Positions 2,941 to 7,441 of a stretch of 33,059 nt of DNA are shown in pieces. The notes below the pieces were generated by a model that saw only the letters and a program-made list of their open reading frames with translations, had not been told where the DNA came from and did not search any database. Source of the DNA: a virus; the IMG/VR virus record IMGVR_UViG_3300043539_000446, positions 1-33,059 of that record; one strand, written 5' to 3'. The translations under genes were made by a program, and so were the position numbers. The stretch's first letter is position 1; each line of letters starts with the position of its first letter.

Positions 2941-4179
2941 TTATATTCCTGTAATTGTAGCTAAATTAGGCCTATTGTGCAGTACCGGATATTTGAACGC
3001 AATAAAATATCCACTGCTATCAACCCAATCATCAATGGCTGGGTGAGCTGTAAACTTTTCTGGCTCTAATTTATCATCATAGCCTTGAGTTTCAAGCGCA
3101 TTGGTTAAGTTTGGGCATTTATCTGTGTTAATAAATAACTTATGGTGTGAAAGCAATCCATTATAAGCGTTAATTCTATCCCGTACTGCTGGATTAGCTG
3201 GATTATATTGCAGTTGATAACCTGCTTGTCTAATCATGCCAATATCAGATTGGCTTGAATTTGTTTTTCCTGCTTTGCCGCTTGCGTCAGGATAAACGAT
3301 TATTTTTCTATCACCATAACGCGTTAAATTATTAATAAAGTCTTGCGTATCGTGTGAAACAAACTCGTCAACAGCGATAGGAATATTATTATCAATGACA
3401 AAAGTAACAGCACAACAACCACCAATATTGAAATCAATTGAAACATGAATGAATGTATCGCGTTCATTTAGTTCTCGCTGTGTGTGATGTCGTTTACGAT
3501 CAAAGAAATGATAAACCTTGTTTTTGTTTAGTGATACAAAATCACCAAGCAAATAAAGTTCGGCTAATATTGGGTCGTAGTTAGCTAAAATTTGCTCTGC
3601 ATAATCTTTAGGTAAAAAAGGGTTGCTATAGGTGCTTGCCTTGTATAAAACATAGCCTTTTTGCTGTAGTTTTACCCATTTATGATAAACAAACCCATTG
3701 ATTCCATTATCAGGTGTTGTCACCACGCCAATAGTATTTTTACCGTCAAACTTTTGCCGTGTTCTTTCTGTAATTTTTCGCCATACTAAAGCCGCTTTAT
3801 CCATTGGCAATGTATCAATTTCATCAACTATTGAGTGAGCGACTTCAAAAGATACAATTTTAGATGGATTATCATAACTACGAAAAATAATAAAACCATA
3901 GCCAGCGACATCAATTTTAAATTCTGATTTATTGACATGGAATTTTAAACCCATCATTGCTAAATCTTCTTCAACTCCGGGCATCGCTCTTAATCGTAAT
4001 AAATCATAAGTTGGTAAAAATATACCAACGTTTACGCCTTTATTTTGAAGAAGTAATAACACCGCCCGCATTGTTCCTGCTCGTGTTTTTCCGCTACCCA
4101 ATCCACCAACAATAGCTGGATAAGGTTCTTCTGAAAACACAAATTGTCTTTGCGGTAGCGTTAAAGGTATATCTGGCAT
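2941..4179 (-). CDS. terL: Terminase large subunit (DNA packaging ATPase/nuclease)
   Basis: 412 residues with both expected domains. The ATPase shows Walker A GGLGSGKT (25-32), Walker B SIVDEID (116-122, with catalytic Glu) and a coupling motif VVTTPDN (152-158). The RNase H-like nuclease has acidic positions at VSIDFN (Asp249), VYPDASG (Asp298) and AIDDWVDS (Asp383/384/387). TerL cuts concatemeric phage DNA and pumps it through the portal. The start overlaps the small-terminase stop by one base (TAATG-type coupling). It belongs to the Terminase_6-like group by pattern; packaging mode (cos or headful) cannot be read from the protein alone. Confidence 0.95.
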   Translation of the reverse strand: MPDIPLTLPQRQFVFSEEPYPAIVGGLGSGKTRAGTMRAVLLLLQNKGVNVGIFLPTYDLLRLRAMPGVEEDLAMMGLKFHVNKSEFKIDVAGYGFIIFRSYDNPSKIVSFEVAHSIVDEIDTLPMDKAALVWRKITERTRQKFDGKNTIGVVTTPDNGINGFVYHKWVKLQQKGYVLYKASTYSNPFLPKDYAEQILANYDPILAELYLLGDFVSLNKNKVYHFFDRKRHHTQRELNERDTFIHVSIDFNIGGCCAVTFVIDNNIPIAVDEFVSHDTQDFINNLTRYGDRKIIVYPDASGKAGKTNSSQSDIGMIRQAGYQLQYNPANPAVRDRINAYNGLLSHHKLFINTDKCPNLTNALETQGYDDKLEPEKFTAHPAIDDWVDSSGYFIAFKYPVLHNRPNLATITGI

Positions 4180-4439
4180 TAAAGCTCCATTTCTTCGGCT
4201 TTAATGATGTGAATTTTTATAGGCGTTGTATCTTGCAGATTAGTGTTAACCGTCATTGGCAACACTTTACCAACCAACGTTAAAAATGCCGTTGGGTTTT
4301 CATCAGCTTGCCTTGCTAAATAAGCCTGCCCTCCAACATCATCTAATGCCCCTAGAATCATCTCTTTTAATTCTTTGGTAACTTTGTTAGGCATACCTTT
4401 GGGACGTCCTAGTCCCCTATTTCCTGCCTTTTTTTCCAT
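4179..4439 (-). CDS. terS: Terminase small subunit
   Basis: An 86-residue protein directly upstream of and coupled to large terminase. It contains GRPKGMPNKVTKELKEMI (residues about 11-28), then a helical stretch ending LVGKVLPM, the pattern of short phage small terminases with a GRPKG N-terminus. Small terminases recognise the packaging start site and recruit the large subunit. It is shorter than classical Terminase_2 proteins (about 150-200 residues) and lacks an obvious extended oligomerisation domain, but similarly short forms exist next to DUF4055 portals. Start chosen at the ATG at 4439, with GGGGG in the preceding 8 nt. Confidence 0.8.
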   Translation of the reverse strand: MEKKAGNRGLGRPKGMPNKVTKELKEMILGALDDVGGQAYLARQADENPTAFLTLVGKVLPMTVNTNLQDTTPIKIHIIKAEEMEL

Positions 4440-4447
4440 ATTTCCCC

Positions 4448-5029
4448 CTATTTTACGGGATTTGTTAATTTATCGTTAATTATCATATTCCAAAATTCTA
4501 AAGTTTCGTTATAAATTTGTTTTGCTATGCGTTCATCTTCTTTGCAAATTTCTACCCAGAATTTATTTGGCATTGTTTTTAACCATACATCAATAGGTTT
4601 TAATTTGGAAACATAATGTTTTGCTCTTTCAATACATTTATCTAAATTATGTTGAGAACCATTAGCAATGTTGGTTAATTTATCTTTTAAATTAATAATA
4701 AAATATTTTTCAATTTTTAAAGCATTTATTTCTGTTAAATTGTTTTCAATTATTAACTCACGAATTTTTGAGCCGCGCTTTAATATTTCTTGGATTGCCT
4801 TGTGTTTTGGCACGTTGTCTATTCTTCCATTTTTAGATGCTTTTACATGAGAATAAACTCTATTGCCTTTTCCTTTGCCAATATAAATTATTTCATCAGT
4901 ATCATCTGCAACAAGCGCATAAACATAATACGCTGTTCCTATTTTAGATTCATAGCCATAAGAGTTAAATATTGCTTCGCTTGCGCTTTCGTTTTTTAAA
5001 TATTCTTTTAAAAATAATTGATGTTTCAT
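4448..5029 (-). CDS. GIY-YIG endonuclease, LEM-3-like, probable homing enzyme
   Basis: A 193-residue protein read from the ATG at 5029. Residues 34-130 form a GIY-YIG nuclease: YYVYAL (34-39), IYIGKGKGNR (48-57) with Arg57, His61, the catalytic-type Glu107 in LKIEKYF, and Asn120. The KGKGNR form with spaced HxxAS resembles the LEM-3-like branch. Residues 1-35 (LFLKEYLKNESASEA, GY, TAY) resemble the helix-turn-helix start of Terminase_2 small subunits. An upstream ATG at 5080 lies inside the strong hairpin and has no good ribosome-binding site, whereas AGGTG precedes 5029. It sits 8 nt before the small terminase gene and is more AT-rich than its neighbours, as expected for a free-standing homing gene. 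Confidence 0.8.
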   Translation of the reverse strand: MKHQLFLKEYLKNESASEAIFNSYGYESKIGTAYYVYALVADDTDEIIYIGKGKGNRVYSHVKASKNGRIDNVPKHKAIQEILKRGSKIRELIIENNLTEINALKIEKYFIINLKDKLTNIANGSQHNLDKCIERAKHYVSKLKPIDVWLKTMPNKFWVEICKEDERIAKQIYNETLEFWNMIINDKLTNPVK

Positions 5030-5042
5030 TTTTACACCTAAT

Positions 5043-5113
5043 AAAAAAAAGCCGCTTCTAACATCATCGCAAGTGAGCATATAGATTGGCTCATGATGTA
5101 GGAATTGGCTTTT
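5043..5113 (-). terminator. Long hairpin with U-run, rho-independent terminator or attenuator
   Basis: On the minus strand AAAAGCC (5107-5113) pairs with GGCTTTT (5047-5053); inside this are UUC/GAA, ACATCAT/ATGATGT (7 bp) and GAGC/GCTC (4 bp) round a 10-nt loop, followed by a run of eight T (5043-5050). It lies immediately before the GIY-YIG start codon, so it would end transcripts arriving from upstream or attenuate expression of the endonuclease and perhaps the terminase genes. Confidence 0.7.
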
Positions 5114-5145
5114 GTTTAATCTATACTTTTAATGGCTTGCGACCA
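5043..5145 (-). ncRNA. Candidate small RNA of about 100 nt
   Basis: Bounded by an extended -10 promoter (5152-5160) and a hairpin plus U-run terminator (5043-5113), with no convincing coding sequence inside. The 5' third is unstructured, the rest is the long terminator stem. It could be an independent phage small RNA, or merely a leader/attenuator for the GIY-YIG gene. No known RNA family recognised. Confidence 0.35.
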
Positions 5146-5151
5146 TAAGTA

Positions 5152-5160
5152 ATTATACCA
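5152..5160 (-). promoter_or_regulatory. Extended -10 promoter
   Basis: The minus strand reads TGGTATAAT, a perfect TATAAT preceded by the TGn extension that compensates for a poor -35 (TGCGGA at 17 nt). Initiation would be near 5145, and the terminator hairpin ends about 100 nt further on, so this could define a discrete short transcript (see the ncRNA entry). It overlaps the stop codon of the ParB-like stub. Confidence 0.5.
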
Positions 5161-5203
5161 CATACGGTATTAAATCCGCAGTTTTACGTTGTGTGATTTC
5201 CAT
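5153..5203 (-). pseudogene. Stub of a ParB-like / DNA-methylase-associated gene
   Basis: The minus strand reads ATG then MEITQRKTADLIPYVV and stop. The segment KTADLIPY matches the usual first residues of phage ParB-like (ParBc) proteins, many fused to a DNA methylase, that commonly stand just upstream of small terminase; there the next residues are typically an Asn/Arg-rich stretch with THS. Here the frame stops at TAA after 16 codons, where the promoter/hairpin/GIY-YIG segment begins. AGAG lies about 10 nt upstream. I read this as the remnant of a gene replaced or interrupted by the GIY-YIG segment; so short a match could be coincidental. Confidence 0.45.
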
Positions 5204-5408
5204 TAATATTCTCTGTTAAGTTAACCATCAAGTAATTAAACCATAACCCCGCAGTGCAAAATTATCAGAAATGCTGCGGTAAAACTGCTCCCGTCTTTTT
5301 TTCGTGCGAGAGGACACGCGTTAGGGTTTAATTCTTCATAGTTAAACCAACCAACCCAGTTATTGATAAATCGCCATAAAGTGATTTCTGAGTTAGTTGG
5401 TTAAAAAG

Positions 5409-5414
5409 ATTATA
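5409..5414 (-). promoter_or_regulatory. Possible promoter -10 for the terminase/head operon
   Basis: A perfect minus-strand TATAAT lies upstream of the leftward packaging genes. The -35 candidate TTACTA at 17 nt is weak. Position favours a role in transcribing the packaging operon, but AT-rich DNA makes a chance match likely. Confidence 0.3.
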
Positions 5415-5490
5415 TTCTAAAAAGTAAAAAATAGTAATTTTATTTTTAAAAAATTAAACATACAGTTAAATATACAAGCCACTATACATA

Positions 5491-5518
5491 TATACACCTC
5501 TTTAAAGAGAGGTGTATA
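5491..5518. repeat. Perfect hairpin, 11-bp arms
   Basis: TATACACCTCT (5491-5501) and AGAGGTGTATA (5508-5518) are exact reverse complements round a 6-nt loop. No T-run follows on either strand, so it is a poor terminator; a protein-binding palindrome or origin element is as likely. It lies downstream of the primase-helicase gene. Confidence 0.75.
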
Positions 5519-5586
5519 TGTATGTATACTTTTTGGCCAGACCTATACAATATACAAAAGTATACAAATGTATATGTATGTATACT
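5513..5586. repeat. 18-bp direct repeat, two exact copies
   Basis: TGTATATGTATGTATACT occurs at 5513-5530 and again, identical, at 5569-5586. The start points are 56 bp apart; copy two runs into the primase-helicase stop codon and copy one overlaps the hairpin arm. Between them are more TATAC/GTATAC motifs. The arrangement resembles iterons. Confidence 0.8.
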
Positions 5587-7441
5587 ATATTTTCTCCCAA
5601 TACCATTGCCCATTATTTTCAACAAGACCTTGTTCTATAAGTGTTTTTACTCCTTCCCTAAACCAACCTGCGTGTCGTCCTGTGTTTTTTACAGCATAGC
5701 ATTCAAATGCAAATGGCTTCCATTGTTCAAGCGTCACCACAAAATGATCTTTTTCTTCCAATGTATACTTTTTCCCATCTACTTTTGTTTTTTCAACTGC
5801 CATTTTTAACCCGTCAAGCGTCTTTTTTGTTTTGTCGGATAACTCTTTTTTCTCCTCACCAACGCCAACATATTCCAAATAAACGCCCTCAATCTGTTTT
5901 CCTTCGTCATCGTCATAAAAACAATCGCCCTCAAGATCAACCACTTTTATTCTAAAATCCATATTATTGCCTGCACTAAAATCTTTTGATTTGGTACATG
6001 ACAGCGTGACTTCCATCTTTGATTTCTTTGTCATGCAAAATTCTGCGTCCATGCCTGCTTTAATAGCACTGCTTCCACGCGCCCGACCTTTATCACCATG
6101 ACCGCTGTGATGCACTGGTGAAATAGCTGCATTATATTTCTTAGCCAATAATTCCATGTTAGCCAAGAATATCGCCATATCCTCGCTGCTATTCTCATCA
6201 CCGTGCATATTTCTGTGCATTGTGTCGATAAAAATGGCGCATGGTGGCTCGTCTAAGTCTAACCCATCTAAGATATTGGCTACACGCATTACCGCGTCTG
6301 TATCAAGCAAATTAACGCTTTTTGTGCTAAAATAAATGTTGTCAGGGTTCATATTATATTTTTGTTTGAGTGCTTGCATTCTCATTGCAAGCCCTCGATG
6401 CCCTTCCCCAGCAATAACCACCACCGTGCCTTTTTTAGTTTTGTGACCGTGCCACGGAATCCCATTGCCAATACAAAACGCCCAGTCCATCGCAATCAGC
6501 GATTTACACGCCCCAGATTCACCAAAAAGTAACGTGTTTGAGCCGCGCTCAAGTAGGTTTTTAATTACCCAATCAGCGCGTGTGGTGTTTGCCATCAAAT
6601 CATGGACTGAAACAAACAGGTTTTGCTTTTGCCCAATAATAAAATCCGCAACGGCCGATATGCCTGCGCGTTTTGCCATGTCGTTAAAATCTTCACCAAC
6701 AATAGGCGAGTGGATAACTTCTACCCCGCATTTATTGGCTTTCTCGATACCTACACCGCTTGCGTCATTATCCGCGCATATAATCACCCTGCCTTTGTAC
6801 TGACTGCGCACCATGTCGCACACTGGCTTTAAATTCCCAGCGTTAAACGCAACCACAACACATTGTGCTGTGGCTTCGTGGATTGTCATGGCGGTGGCAA
6901 ATCCTTCGGCAATGATTACCATGTCGGACGGCTCACCAATAGTGAAGTAACCGCCCTGCATTTTACCGCCCGTGTAAAATCGTTTTGTGCCGTCTGTGGA
7001 AATATATTGAAGCGACTGGATTTCACCACCCACGCCATAAACAGGAATAACGAGTTTGCCGTCATAAATGCGCAGTGCTGCGTGTGATTTGACATTTTTG
7101 CGCGTCAAATAATCGTGATCTAAAGCGTGTGGGAGTTTTGCATACAGCTCCTGAGCGTTAAACGCTGCGTTGCTGTAAGCAAAATCCCGTTCTTCTTTGG
7201 CTTTCTCAATAGCTTGTTCGCGTTCGTAATCGTTTTCGCTACTTCTAAAGCCATCAGCAAACCAAACGTGTTGCTCGCCCGATTTCCAGTCACCATAACA
7301 TGCGCCTTTGCCGTCTATAAATAATGATACCCAGCCAGATTTCTCTTTGCCTGTAGTGGCAAAACGCGTAATGCCGTGCTGATTTATATGCGTTGGCGGA
7401 TTTATGCCTGAAGCGCGTATTGCATTTAATAGATCATTCAT
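5585..7441 (-). CDS. Bifunctional primase-helicase (Toprim + RepA-like AAA ATPase)
   Basis: 618 residues. A Toprim primase core spans about 170-265: VIIAEGFATAMTI with Glu179, ICADNDASG (221-229), GEDFNDM (249-255). A RecA/RepA-type hexameric helicase (AAA_25-like) follows from about 290: P-loop FGESGACKSL (306-315), Walker B AIFIDTMHRN (402-411), then a PVHHSGHGDKGRARGSSAI block (about 445-463) conserved in this group. No N-terminal zinc finger is visible. The P-loop has Cys312 where classical Walker A has Gly; relatives of this group often deviate there (GxSGxxKS). The C-terminal 100 residues look like a winged-helix end. It should prime and unwind phage DNA. It starts in an ATGA overlap with the small HTH gene and is transcribed away from the other replication genes. 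Confidence 0.88.
   Translation of the reverse strand: MNDLLNAIRASGINPPTHINQHGITRFATTGKEKSGWVSLFIDGKGACYGDWKSGEQHVWFADGFRSSENDYEREQAIEKAKEERDFAYSNAAFNAQELYAKLPHALDHDYLTRKNVKSHAALRIYDGKLVIPVYGVGGEIQSLQYISTDGTKRFYTGGKMQGGYFTIGEPSDMVIIAEGFATAMTIHEATAQCVVVAFNAGNLKPVCDMVRSQYKGRVIICADNDASGVGIEKANKCGVEVIHSPIVGEDFNDMAKRAGISAVADFIIGQKQNLFVSVHDLMANTTRADWVIKNLLERGSNTLLFGESGACKSLIAMDWAFCIGNGIPWHGHKTKKGTVVVIAGEGHRGLAMRMQALKQKYNMNPDNIYFSTKSVNLLDTDAVMRVANILDGLDLDEPPCAIFIDTMHRNMHGDENSSEDMAIFLANMELLAKKYNAAISPVHHSGHGDKGRARGSSAIKAGMDAEFCMTKKSKMEVTLSCTKSKDFSAGNNMDFRIKVVDLEGDCFYDDDEGKQIEGVYLEYVGVGEEKKELSDKTKKTLDGLKMAVEKTKVDGKKYTLEEKDHFVVTLEQWKPFAFECYAVKNTGRHAGWFREGVKTLIEQGLVENNGQWYWEKI

Follow-up and report, generated by a model that had tools for sequence, protein, structure and literature searches.

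A candidate family of mobile RNA leaders with a double-pseudoknot fold in related phages

We begin by considering a compact unit in the virus record IMGVR_UViG_3300043539_000446 of IMG/VR, of which positions 1 to 33,059 are analysed here; this whole stretch of 33,059 nucleotides is called the window. Between the phage replication genes and the terminase genes, the minus strand carries what its sequence marks as a small transcription unit: an extended -10 element, a long stem-loop ending in eight U residues (U8) and, behind it, an open reading frame (ORF) for a GIY-YIG nuclease. The question is "does this unit give rise to a structured RNA, either a small RNA or a leader, that has a promoter and a terminator of its own, as the original prediction proposed?" The sequence evidence strongly supports this proposal, with covariation in other copies being decisive. 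The fold and the family are well supported, and we describe them as a new, predicted family of mobile phage RNA leaders.

The RNA, its fold and its relatives

Both of the predicted signals, the extended -10 and the U8 stem-loop, are present. The -10 taken alone, however, is at the level of chance: the pattern TGnTATAAT occurs once in the whole window (TGGTATAAT, 5160-5152) where shuffled sequences would give 2.75, so the promoter element is not significant by itself.

The RNA of 104 nt (5146-5043) has a minimum-energy fold of -24.4 kcal/mol (z -2.5) and its counterpart in the relative L005 one of -27.5 kcal/mol (z -3.5); the truncated RNA by itself has an ordinary stability (z about -0.9). The terminator stem had been described as four paired blocks of 7, 3, 7 and 4 bp, of which the 7 and the 3 are right; the remainder are 6 and 5 bp, there is a 7-nt bulge, and the 5' hairpin and two long-range helices had been overlooked. 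The loop of the 5' hairpin (a) is complementary to the bulge (a'), and the 9-nt strand that follows the hairpin (b) is complementary to the apical loop (b'), with a helix of up to 9 bp onto a loop of 10 nt. When the 5' part of the RNA is shuffled, the two complementarities arise jointly in 0.025% of cases. Because this shuffle test was conceived after the sequence had been seen, independent copies were sought.

The entry to the family is a weak 13-nt similarity to the contig L007, leading to a second RNA with other letters and the same architecture. Scanning viral contigs with a pattern, searching 50 related records for a motif and applying a covariance model, we find at least 13 distinct copies in related phage contigs of IMG/VR, and they fall into six sequence types. 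Neither a promoter nor a pseudoknot was demanded in finding L338, L351 and L356 (via the linker motif) or L051 (via the linker motif and the terminator stem), and L382 was found with a covariance model built without pseudoknots. A TATAAT lies 5-8 nt ahead of the 5' hairpin in 13/13 distinct copies, including those found without requiring it. The covariance model matches the window RNA at E 1.3e-9, the window copy being itself part of the model. In both covariance models 1-2 middle-stem pairs are misplaced and the sensitivity is reduced accordingly; the pair counts given below are independent of the models.

Covariation is assessed on a hand-made, N-padded, structure-guided alignment of 13 copies, whose sequences are related within types. 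Over the six helices, 97.5% of the cells are paired and 30 of the 39 pairs are changed on both sides (0/500 shuffles), with a covariation score of 0.711 versus 0.197 in the shuffles; when the partners are slid against each other, at most 43% of the cells are paired. For the pseudoknot helices alone, 97.1% of the cells are paired, a share that sliding reduces to 45% or less, and both sides have changed in 13/16 pairs. The check attached to the original prediction, that the stem pairing be kept in homologous loci, is thus passed over the 13 copies. An ordinary terminator or a chance hairpin behind a spurious -10 would fit the chance-level -10, but all six helices covary in the other copies, and as a full explanation it is refuted.

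The same RNA and nuclease are found together in four IMG/VR contigs. Between the window and L005, the most distant of the four, there are 4 substitutions in the 104 nt of the RNA, 7 in the 13 nt of the spacer to the ORF, 34 at the 194 third codon positions of the GIY-YIG gene and none in the 12 nt of the junction from the -10 to the start; the RNA is the slowest-evolving segment of the locus in this comparison. Two of its four changes preserve a pair and one adds a pair. A coding sequence within the RNA is rejected, as the changes follow the fold rather than a reading frame.

Rfam 15 at the gathering score has no match in the window or over the RNAs of types 1-6, and below threshold it gives chance-level matches over the window unit. 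The Twister ribozyme (type P1) is rejected at 17.6 bits versus a gathering score of 67.2 (E 0.56), with only part of the RNA covered. By DNA similarity to GenBank phages the locus is without a match and the RNAs give chance pieces alone, and no credible RNA match is present in the two GenBank phages related to this one by TerL. With strict filters and without a positive control, 369 genomes of a single bacterial class searched by covariance model give nothing at E <= 0.001. More distant relatives of the GIY-YIG nuclease show no similar RNA ahead of their genes, and a literature search finds no description of the RNA family.

Table 1. Features of the unit and its junctions in the window, with the evidence for each.
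Feature	Positions	Strand	Evidence or remark
ParB-methyltransferase gene remnant, MEITQRKTADLIPYV then V-stop; left junction of the cassette	5153..5203	-	intact genes begin MEITQRKTADLIPYVNNARTHS
Extended -10, TGGTATAAT	5152..5160	-	sequence; TG is the end of codon 15 (GTG) of the truncated ParB-methyltransferase ORF
Structured RNA, about 104 nt, 5' hairpin to U8	5043..5146	-	fold z, slow evolution, covariation (n=13), covariance model match
5' hairpin H1: AUGG 5146-5143, loop a UCGCAAG 5142-5136, CCAU 5135-5132	5132..5146	-	100% of cells paired; 3/4 pairs changed on both sides
Strand b, GUAUAGAUU, partner of b'	5118..5126	-	b-b': 94.7% of cells paired; 6/9 pairs changed on both sides
Conserved linker AAAC and AAAAGCC (5' strand of outer terminator stem)	5107..5117	-	motif near-constant in every copy
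5' strands of middle stem ACAUCA and inner stem (U)GAGC	5089..5099	-	changed on both sides: middle 8/8 pairs, inner 4/4
10-nt apical loop containing b', AAUCUAUAU	5079..5088	-	complementarity to b in every type
a', CUUGCGA, 7-nt bulge on 3' side of terminator hairpin	5067..5073	-	a-a': 100% of cells paired; 7/7 pairs changed on both sides
GGCUUUU, 3' strand of terminator stem, and U-run (U8 = 5050-5043)	5043..5053	-	U8 in 13/13 copies
Downstream ORF, LEM-3-type GIY-YIG nuclease, starting 13 nt past the U-run	4448..5029	-	PF22945, E 5.9e-11

Genes and sites associated with the RNA

The next question is "does the RNA belong to the nuclease gene?" At least seven unrelated ORFs are found behind the family: the GIY-YIG nuclease, an HTPAPW protein (phrog_1273), four small proteins without a clear family and a protein of 158-160 aa; an eighth, of 41 aa, is doubtful. 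The proposal that the RNA travels with a homing gene is too narrow, because the family also heads at least six other unrelated genes. The terminase genes had been named as well among those that a leader might attenuate, and nothing ties the RNA to these genes in particular.

The loose association with any one gene bears on the main rival to a leader, a small RNA acting in trans. Here the RNA would be the selected product, the gene behind it would share its promoter or hitch-hike, and the compact fold would protect the RNA and present it to a host or phage target. The near-identical type-2 RNAs are followed by four different genes, L051 retains the RNA with its ORF lost, the RNA is more conserved than the adjoining gene, and a 5' hairpin at the presumed start is matched by a terminator at the 3' end. 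The start codon, however, lies 13-19 nt after U8 in all complete distinct units except L051, and such a steady distance to unrelated genes suits a leader better. Hardly any unpaired position is conserved beyond the AAAC linker, and a search for antisense targets of the RNA within the window gives nothing strong. We regard a trans-acting product as possible, with the balance of these points tilting against it. As a separate observation, an RNA copy in L360 that has no ORF is followed by a tRNA-like sequence (1716-1792); its anticodon call is an odd one of four bases, and its acceptor stem seems to be extended.

A cassette with a type-2 RNA is inserted on the opposite strand between the portal and head genes of L007 (about 3750-4250), a site that is empty in the window (position 1550, with a TAATG overlap). 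This cassette is similar to phage morons, inserted genes with their own promoter and terminator that are missing at the same site in relatives; judged from the letters, a TATAAT and, after two type-2 ORFs, a GCCCGT-type terminator would serve as such signals. The difference from morons is the conserved structured RNA, with a terminator of its own, between the promoter and the gene.

The site of the window unit is variable as well. At the primase-helicase/TerS interval (window 4440-5585, minus strand), related contigs have ParB-methyltransferases with differing C-termini, an HNH nuclease, a Dcm-like methyltransferase, the GIY-YIG nuclease or other genes; the interval is therefore an exchange hotspot that houses the window unit. 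The 15-codon ParB-methyltransferase remnant upstream of the RNA has 7 changes relative to L005, 7/7 of them synonymous. A self-splicing intron is rejected, as the sequence immediately behind the nuclease does not continue the ParB gene and Rfam gives no match.

Exchangeable genes behind an element of conserved structure and free sequence could also point to a single-stranded DNA structure for moving or exchanging cassettes, with a logic like that of integron attC sites. The fixed spacing of TATAAT, U8 and the ribosome-binding site are instead marks of a transcription unit, the element is 5' of the gene, and no recombinase adjoins it among the genes looked at, which makes this explanation very improbable.

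Three observations concern the nuclease and the surroundings of the unit. The subfamily of the nuclease (L093-L100) combines the N-terminal helix-turn-helix (HTH) of terminase small subunits with the LEM-3 GIY-YIG domain, PF03592 being found at the N-terminus in L094, L097, L098 and L099 (E 1e-9 to 8e-12); the N-terminus of the window nuclease looks like a decayed HTH of this kind. Right after a TATAAT, a long conserved inverted repeat, AACCAACYAACYCAG...CTGGGTTGGTTGGTT, lies at 5342-5405 of the minus strand, and many related records share it on the downstream side of the helicase; it is perhaps a second small RNA unit. Past the helicase, 5485-5600 has inverted repeats rich in GTATAC/GTAC, with the same layout and other letters (CGTACGTACGCGTACATT) in relatives.

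Possible roles of the RNA

We turn our attention to what the RNA may do. In all types, a' falls in the bulge and b' in the apical loop, and neither overlaps the strands of the terminator, which suggests that the pseudoknots can coexist with the terminator and need not exclude it. A mutually exclusive switch is set back for the same reason. When folded as a growing chain, the window RNA pairs a-a' and b-b' before the 3' strand of the terminator exists. We therefore favour a terminator docked during transcription, in a mobile promoter-RNA-terminator leader of moron-type cassettes that would limit the gene behind it to read-through while releasing a compact small RNA; we give this a probability of roughly 0.55. 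Host RNA polymerase would start at or just ahead of the 5' hairpin, and the hairpin and strand b would form first during synthesis. As the terminator hairpin grows, its apical loop and 3' bulge would pair with strand b and loop a, respectively, forming the two pseudoknot helices. At the U8 terminator, where the closed fold would end, most transcripts would stop and remain as compact RNAs of some 104 nt. Only read-through transcripts would allow translation of the following gene (here the GIY-YIG nuclease), by way of a ribosome-binding site just past the U-run that is usually weak among the copies. Attenuation of the GIY-YIG gene by the RNA is plausible, and the RNA would be a reusable module that heads different accessory genes at different sites in related phages.

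Several points weigh against such a leader. The growing chain of L005 mixes in other pairings, making the early a-a'/b-b' fold less clear. We find neither a sensor or ligand nor an alternative antiterminator that overlaps the strands of the terminator. The fold is also more elaborate than an attenuator requires, a possible sign of a role in trans.

One such role would be a dual one, in which a short RNA ends at the terminator and also controls the read-through mRNA in trans via a/a' or b/b', the copy-specific loops separating co-resident units. Three contigs have two different copies each, and the co-resident copies differ at a in 3/3 contigs, a small sample. Loop a forms 7/7 pairs with its own a' in every representative and only 1-6/7 with the a' of another a-class. 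The IsrK RNA of Gifsy-1 (PMC4825925) has the same layout of phage-borne promoter, small RNA, terminator and read-through into accessory ORFs, and is a precedent for a small RNA and a read-through mRNA role together. Its abstract describes no double pseudoknot, and IsrK is a single locus, while the present family heads different genes. As a' and b' lie away from the ribosome-binding site and the region past the U-run shows no strong sequestration, we hold a dual role to be unlikely. Equally speculative is a self-recognising module, in which intermolecular a/a' and b/b' pairing would give each cassette its own specificity, a form of RNA-based immunity or exclusion that would keep co-resident cassettes distinct.

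The short blocks of the c4 antisense RNA pair elsewhere, whereas those of the present RNA pair inside the same molecule, which is also without an Rfam match. What the two have in common is a small phage RNA before a phage gene, c4 being known from P1/P7-type phages (Rfam RF01695; listed in PMC2864571). Cyanophages likewise carry structured RNA domains, the manA and wcaG motifs (PMC2864571), of which at least manA occurs in potential 5' untranslated regions. These are riboswitch candidates, whereas the present RNA has few conserved unpaired bases and no Rfam counterpart. A type III toxin-antitoxin system is rejected, since the RNA is single-copy per unit and unrelated ORFs follow the same RNA type. 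The HEARO or omega RNA of IscB-type nucleases is rejected as well: there is no Rfam match and the nuclease here is of the LEM-3 GIY-YIG type, not HNH/RuvC.

The RNA adds to the known structured RNAs a family absent from Rfam 15, in which a double-pseudoknot fold is kept with nearly free sequence and exchanged between unrelated accessory genes of phages. It suggests a way in which phages may keep their cargo genes lowly expressed, or else a small-RNA function common to many cassettes.
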